This document shows positions 26,952-48,554 of a DNA stretch of 64,000 nt, in pieces. Source of the stretch: Flavobacteriaceae bacterium UJ101 (GTDB taxonomy: Bacteria > Bacteroidota > Bacteroidia > Flavobacteriales > UJ101); contig CP016269.1 of the NCBI GenBank assembly GCA_001880285.1, forward strand, positions 2,676,501 through 2,740,500. The letters run 5' to 3'. A program made the position numbers and the translations under genes. The notes under the pieces were generated by a model. It was not told the DNA's origin. It was given only the letters and a program-made list of their open reading frames with translations, and did no database searches. Within the stretch, counting starts at the first letter, position 1. Every line of letters starts with the position of its first letter.

Positions 26952-27590
26952 ATGAAGAAAATAGTAATAGGTTGTGGATTAGTATTTTTAATTATAGCCT
27001 TGTTGTTTGTAGGGTTATCCTTTGCGTATAAAGGTATAACAGAGAATAATTTAGAAAATAGACTAGAAACAGTACATAATAATTGGATTGAATTGTTAGA
27101 ATTACAGGACGAAAAAAATAATCTTCTAAAAGAATTAATACATGATAGTTTATTGGATATTCAATATGTTGATAGTTTGAATATGAGCTTGATAGAATAT
27201 AATAAAAATAGGAACGAACTAAAGGAATGTAATCCAAAGTTTGTTTATGAGCAATATTTATCTAATAAATATATGTTACCGATTATGAAGTTTTATTCAG
27301 AAAAAAATCAATTACTCGATTTGAAATCAAAGACCTCAATTAATAATATTCAAAATAATATAGAAAAGTTAAATAAAGTTATTGATCAATATAATTTAAG
27401 TGTTAGGAGTTATAATACGTTTTATTTAACATTTCCTAATTTTATTATAGCAAAATCATCTGGTTTTAAGAAGAAAGATTATTTTCAAATCCAATTTGGA
27501 GTAGAAAATACTGATCCTAAAAGAGTAAGAGAAGAAAGAATAAAAGAGCTAAAAGAAATTGAAAAGAAGTATGGTTTAAACGAAGAATAA
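26952..27590 (+). CDS. Divergent LemA-like membrane protein
   Basis: This 212-residue protein has an N-terminal transmembrane segment (about residues 4-26) and a helical domain. The C-terminal part matches the LemA pattern: IDQYNLSVRSYNTFYLTFPN, then IIAKSSGFKKKDYFQIQF, the usual 'YN..V..YNT....FP' and 'GF....YF' positions. The N-terminal helix differs from ordinary LemA proteins, so this is a divergent member. LemA proteins are membrane-associated with poorly known roles. It is the last gene of the AT-rich accessory stretch, followed by a terminator. Confidence 0.75.
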   Translation: MKKIVIGCGLVFLIIALLFVGLSFAYKGITENNLENRLETVHNNWIELLELQDEKNNLLKELIHDSLLDIQYVDSLNMSLIEYNKNRNELKECNPKFVYEQYLSNKYMLPIMKFYSEKNQLLDLKSKTSINNIQNNIEKLNKVIDQYNLSVRSYNTFYLTFPNFIIAKSSGFKKKDYFQIQFGVENTDPKRVREERIKELKEIEKKYGLNEE

Positions 27591-27601
27591 GAATATAAAG
27601 A

Positions 27602-27635
27602 AAAATAGTCTAGCTTTTCAGTTAGACTATTTTTT
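27602..27635 (+). terminator. Terminator after the LemA-like gene
   Basis: AAAATAGTCTA (27602-27612) pairs with TAGACTATTTT (27623-27633) and is followed by more T. Confidence 0.8.
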
Positions 27636-27675
27636 GTGTTTCGTTAAAAAATAACTTAAAAAGAATAAAAATAGA

Positions 27676-27775
27676 TTATATCAAGACGGGACTTTAAAAA
27701 CGTCTTGATATAATTTTTTTTTGTCTTGATGTAACGAGTGCTTTGTCAAGACAAAAAATATTTTTGTCTTGATGT
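27676..27775. repeat. Cluster of overlapping inverted repeats (TCAAGAC/GTCTTGA)
   Basis: Arm 27676-27688 pairs perfectly over 13 bases with 27701-27713. Arm 27717-27729 pairs over 13 bases with 27746-27758, and the latter can instead pair over 12 bases with 27761-27772. A 15-base direct repeat occupies 27718-27732 and 27761-27775. The hairpins therefore include mutually exclusive alternatives. Confidence 0.9.
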
Positions 27776-27894
27776 TTTTTAAATGTATTATAGAAGCGGG
27801 TTTGAAGCCTACTTTTAGAAGAGTATGAACTAGTTTTTAAAAAATCAATTAAAGAGAACAATTGTTGTTATTGTATAAGGATATGAGAAAGAGA

Positions 27895-28164
27895 TTACTT
27901 CAGGTAGGGAATTAAAAAATACAGTACCAAGATAGCTGCTATACCACCTAAAAATGTAGCCAATGCATCTTGTATATCAAAATGGGTTTTCTTAATGTAT
28001 TGATCATAATATTCTTTTCCGATTGAAAAAATAGTTAAAATGATTAAATTGATTTCAATACTAAGAAAGGAACATACGGTTGAGATAAAGAATCCTACAA
28101 AAAAGTGTAGCATCTTATCAAAAGGAATAATTTCTCCATAAAAAAAGGCTTTAATCCATTTCAT
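27895..28164 (-). CDS. Small membrane protein, VanZ/YfiM-like
   Basis: This 89-residue protein has about three hydrophobic segments. The pattern FDKMLHFFVGFF, then GKEYYDQ, then DIQDALATFLGG is the arrangement of DK..HF, KE..D and D..D seen in small VanZ- or YfiM-like integral membrane proteins. No function is known for such proteins in this group. It is transcribed toward the hairpin spacer, 63 bases downstream of the DUF202 gene. Confidence 0.72.
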   Translation of the reverse strand: MKWIKAFFYGEIIPFDKMLHFFVGFFISTVCSFLSIEINLIILTIFSIGKEYYDQYIKKTHFDIQDALATFLGGIAAILVLYFLIPYLK

Positions 28165-48512: not shown

Positions 48513-48554
48513 AAAAACAAGCTTGTTTTCAATCGTAAACAAGCTTGTTTTTTT
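48513..48554. terminator. Bidirectional terminator between cytochrome b561 and UPF0173 genes
   Basis: The palindromic unit AAACAAGCTTGTTT appears twice (48515-48528 and 48537-48550) around TCAATCGT, forming a 14-base stem with an A-flank and a T-flank. Convergent genes lie on both sides. Confidence 0.85.

Follow-up and report, generated by a model that had tools for sequence, protein, structure and literature searches.

A hairpin cluster in a convergent spacer of Flavobacteriaceae bacterium UJ101: a low-copy dispersed repeat carrying a probable intrinsic terminator

The locus and its hairpins

The window analysed here is the whole 64,000-nt stretch of the Flavobacteriaceae bacterium UJ101 chromosome from position 2,676,501 to 2,740,500 (contig CP016269.1, forward strand). 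Near its middle, a plus-strand gene for a LemA-like protein and a minus-strand gene with a weak VanZ-like match converge on a spacer of 304 nt, and this spacer holds a cluster of closely related hairpin arms. The earlier note on this DNA correctly placed the cluster in a convergent spacer; the block that is repeated elsewhere in the genome extends to about 27822, beyond the region described there. The features of the locus, in window coordinates, are as follows.

26952 to 27590, plus strand: upstream gene, LemA-like (PF04011, C-terminal part only)
27600 to 27635, plus strand: conventional terminator-like hairpin of the upstream gene, outside the repeat and absent from the earlier note
27675 to 27822, plus strand: full copy of a dispersed repeat of ~150 nt, defined by three matches elsewhere in the genome, from blastn and a covariance model, and by their alignment
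27675 to 27722, plus strand: hairpin 1, with a 14-bp stem and a loop of 12 nt (about -16.6 kcal/mol), running into T9; a putative intrinsic terminator shared by the four copies
27723 to 27734, plus strand: extra arm GTCTTGATGTAA, a potential partner of 27676-27687 or of 27746-27752
27746 to 27780, plus strand: hairpin B, a 12-bp stem with a loop of 3 nt, and then TGTTTTTT; a second terminator-like hairpin
27781 to 27822, plus strand: right tail AAATGTATTATAGAAGCGGG...CTACTTTTAGAAG, kept in the three full copies
27895 to 28164, minus strand: convergent gene downstream; its VanZ-like match is weak and falls below the curated cut-off

The cluster is built from five arms of a single sequence, all within 92 nt: TCAAGAC begins at 27681 and 27746, and its reverse complement GTCTTGA at 27702, 27723 and 27766. 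These arms had been said to form two perfect 13-base stems, which is accurate for stem 2 (27717-27729 with 27746-27758, 13 bp), while stem 1 (27675-27688 with 27701-27714) is also perfect and one base longer, at 14 bp, and runs directly into nine T residues at 27714-27722. Stem 3 (27746-27757 with 27761-27772, 12 bp) competes with stem 2 for the arm at 27746-27758, as the same note had proposed, and we find an additional pairing that it lacked, in which 27676-27687 meets 27723-27734 over 12 bp with one G.U pair. The 15-nt direct repeat TTTTTGTCTTGATGT is likewise present, with copies at 27718-27732 and 27761-27775.

Both the density of the arms and the stability of the fold are well above chance. 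When the 304-nt spacer was shuffled 500 times with its dinucleotide composition preserved, no single 7-mer with at least three G or C residues was present more than twice per 100 nt, against the five copies observed here. When folded, the two strands give z-scores of -7.3 (plus) and -7.9 (minus), with 0 of 200 shuffles equally stable. Elsewhere in the 64 kb of the window, the sole other site with four copies of one such 7-mer per 100 nt lies at 48516-48550; it is a doubled palindrome, AAACAAGCTTGTTTTC...AAACAAGCTTGTTTTTTT, and looks like an ordinary terminator whose palindrome is present twice.

A repeat family within the genome

A repeat element was one of the origins suggested for the cluster, and the genome bears this out: a blastn search with a 131-nt block matches three further places on the chromosome, giving three full copies, the one in the window included, and one copy cut after ~62 nt. 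The copies and the genes upstream of them are listed below.

Window copy, plus strand: 84 nt behind the stop codon of the LemA-like gene, between convergent genes, with the separate terminator-like hairpin at 27600-27635
1926653, plus strand, 89% (blastn): 72 nt past the end of an HU-HIG family gene, between convergent genes
727694, minus strand, 87% (blastn): 20 nt behind a gene for an AraC-type regulator, the last of a run of same-strand genes
730813, minus strand, first ~62 nt only, 92% (blastn): 45 nt behind a RidA-like gene

Alignment of the copies defines a block of ~150 nt whose left edge is sharp, at ATTATATCAAGAC, and whose right edge fades near CTACTTTTAGAAG; outside the block, the flanks of the copies are no more similar than shuffled sequences. 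The right tail by itself (27781-27822) is not found elsewhere in the genome. A search of the 3.07-Mb chromosome for TCAAGAC-N3-30-GTCTTGA gives five matches, every one of them inside a copy; the reversed control pattern gives none.

A covariance model built from the copies recovers all four and, more weakly, a fifth place at 1028408 on the minus strand (chromosome 1028408-1028510, E 3e-6), which shares with the repeat only the form of hairpin 1 and TTTTTTTGTCTT. This segment follows a peptidase M2 gene and holds a hairpin, ATTAGATCAAGATG...TATCTTGATCTAATTTTTTTGTCTT, of terminator-like form; judged from its sequence it may be either a relic of the repeat or an independent look-alike terminator.

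The earlier note had offered a decaying repeat element as one reading. The alignment does not fit simple decay, as the arm columns are nearly invariant: 2 of 62 vary, compared with 15 of 36 columns outside the arms, in loops and linkers (Fisher P 2e-6), a comparison biased towards structure in that the arms had been chosen from these very sequences. Within hairpin 1 the stem is nearly invariant and the loop varies freely. One pair of hairpin 1 is broken at 1926653; at 727694 a single broken pair lies in the third arm, so that both stems competing for that arm are weakened; and the copy at 730813 has lost everything past ~62 nt, retaining hairpin 1 and its T-run.

This variation also bears on the suggestion that the cluster is a switchable RNA structure. 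A regulated switch, attenuator-like or riboswitch-like, in which partner-swapping arms govern whether read-through enters or leaves the spacer, would make use of the stems of 13 and 12 bp that are rivals for 27746-27758 and of the arm at 27676-27687 with its two partners. We consider it very improbable. No compensatory change is seen in hairpin 1, hairpin B or either alternative pairing (a comparison of four close copies and hence of low power), the mismatches at 1926653 and 727694 are unrepaired, and the copy at 730813 has no competing half at all. All the copies follow a gene, two of them have a convergent gene on the far side, and Rfam returns no family at threshold and only chance-level matches. 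The pattern of changes fits a repeat whose first hairpin matters and does not favor a conserved switch.

A protein-binding array, which the earlier note had also raised, or a small RNA gene would account for five identical 7-mers spaced roughly 20 nt apart, yet we find nothing that points to a binding array, and taken together these two readings strike us as barely plausible. Genome-wide, the single TCAAGAC motif is no commoner than its reversed form (247 places compared with 252), the arms are kept as stems rather than as single sites, no promoter stands out ahead of the block, and no Rfam family matches that would suggest a small RNA. By the same counts we rejected a DNA uptake signal, for which the single motif would have to be over-represented. 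A Bacteroidota-type promoter (TTTG...TAnnTTTG) within the block was rejected as well: TATTTTTG is present by eye, but with too short a spacing, and the copy at 727694 does not preserve it.

The two minus-strand copies share a neighborhood. Across chromosome positions 727673-730873, two copies in the same orientation, one of them cut short, flank the AraC-type regulator gene and two alpha/beta-hydrolase genes, in a segment of ordinary GC content. After the short copy, and ahead of a hydrolase gene, stand two ACCAAAAT-type repeats that could be regulator sites.

Gene context and the terminator reading

The distance from stop codon to element is 20-84 nt in the four copies, all of them in sense orientation, and hairpin 1 with its run of eight or nine T residues is retained in each, including the one that has lost the remainder. 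Each copy thus combines a stable hairpin, an immediate T-run and a position downstream of a coding sequence on the sense strand. At 1926653, 727694 and 730813 there is no other hairpin with a T-run between the stop codon and the element. We read hairpin 1 and its T-run as an intrinsic terminator because the element is oriented like the upstream gene at each site; two of the sites are convergent, so orientation is informative only at the other two (727694 and 730813). We consider it probable that the cluster is one copy of a low-copy, dispersed intergenic repeat of ~150 nt, MITE-like or REP-like in kind, that carries an intrinsic terminator. Weighing against this reading, the family has just four members, and for the two that sit between convergent genes either orientation would count as sense; the gene upstream in the window also has a terminator-like hairpin of its own already, at 27600-27635.

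The most likely role of the window copy is that of an ordinary transcription stop signal, its termination activity being a prediction from sequence. When the upstream gene is transcribed, hairpin 1 would form as the RNA leaves the polymerase and the U-tract would then release the transcript; hairpin B with its T-rich tail could act as a backup, catching transcripts that read through. The competing pairings arise because all the arms are copies of one sequence, and no switching needs to be invoked. An apparent RNA switch can thus be explained by the presence of several copies of one arm in an element, which produces competing stems automatically. Read in this way, the repeat would illustrate how such an element can supply genes with ready-made terminators.

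That the copies are few and all lie behind genes is also what would be expected if a terminator had been duplicated by gene conversion or illegitimate recombination, without a mobile element, and two of the copies (727694 and 730813) are indeed 3 kb apart in the same orientation. We regard this as unlikely, though it deserves some weight: the tail of ~40 nt, which has no terminator role, has been copied along with the rest, the block begins abruptly on the left, and the remaining two copies are far away on the chromosome. A further proposal takes the two copies that bracket the AraC and hydrolase genes (727.7-730.9 kb) as its basis and casts the element as a recombination site that takes up gene cassettes behind terminators; we give it very little credence.

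Comparison with known repeats and distribution beyond this genome

Like known intrinsic (rho-independent) terminators, the element presents a stem-loop and then eight or nine T residues close behind a stop codon, in sense orientation, at four of four sites. It differs from them in its AT-rich stem, its 12-nt loop and its place within a repeated block that is longer and contains additional arms of this sequence, and its activity is predicted.

Among repeat classes, the closest likeness is to miniature elements such as BrickBuilt and MITE239/MITE464 of Porphyromonas gingivalis (PMC4596501), which are also short, AT-rich, non-coding, intergenic, dispersed and hairpin-forming, with full and partial copies side by side. 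The present repeat shares the short, non-coding and dispersed character (three full copies and one truncated), and its dispersal suggests that it was mobile. It differs in having four copies instead of the usual 10-20 (PMC4596501), and in showing neither clear terminal inverted repeats at both edges, nor a target duplication, nor, by blastn, a parent insertion element: the inverted arms are internal to the block, the right edge is blurred and the aligned flanks hold no duplication. The block could instead be what is left of the ends of an insertion or integrative element, or a non-autonomous derivative of one, its arms serving as recombinase sites and the terminator being incidental. Inverted arms near both sides of an AT-rich, intergenic block of ~150 nt are usual for MITEs (PMC4596501) and would suit such an origin, which we nevertheless judge improbable, in that blastn of the block against this genome finds no longer, autonomous element with matching ends, the alignments show no target duplication and a Y1 transposase is absent.

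The REP elements of the GTAG and CGTC superfamilies (PMC3733652) resemble the repeat as repeated palindromes found mostly downstream of genes, between unidirectional or convergent pairs. REPs are 20-40 nt long and high-copy, with a tag at one end and, in the CGTC type, stems of 8-9 bp (PMC3733652), whereas the repeat described here is ~150 nt long with four copies, a 14-bp stem and no RAYT. The RAYT (Y1 transposase, PF01797) is absent from this genome and present in 5 of 14 control genomes. We did not assign the repeat to the REPs, as it has neither a RAYT nor the form of a high-copy, tagged palindrome of 20-40 nt. A low-copy, MITE-like or REP-like repeat that carries a terminator is the most economical description.

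No copy of the cluster was found in the relatives that were searched. Blastn against 60 relatives gives nothing convincing, its two weak matches sharing only an arm; the covariance model gives nothing convincing in 296 genomes of the order, where two weak matches share at most the hairpin form, and no convincing copy in 395 genomes of the class, bearing in mind that strict filters over many genomes miss weak matches. Searches of phages, plasmids and viral contigs gave no convincing copy, and a phage or plasmid origin was rejected, with short chance matches only and none of these in viral contigs. As the family is represented by one genome, restriction to this genome means that the repeat is unseen outside the family in the searched set. 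We found no description of it in the published literature. The analysis adds a small repeat, so far from one genome, to a poorly sampled family of Flavobacteriales.

A scan for the arms only, across 85,000 species genomes, returns 13 matches, 10 of them in Bacteroidota; these have the arms in common and no other sequence alike. The match in Epilithonimonas was set aside, as it appears to continue as coding sequence. Several Bacteroidota (Carboxylicivirga, Pedobacter and others) have intergenic-looking repeats of the TATCAAGTATCAAGAC type, with the same arm sequence. Another Flavobacteriales genome carries on its minus strand a hairpin, TGTATCGAGAACT...TTCTCGATACA, followed by TTTTCTTTCAGAAAATCACTCGAAGTGACATTCTGA, which looks like part of another repeat.
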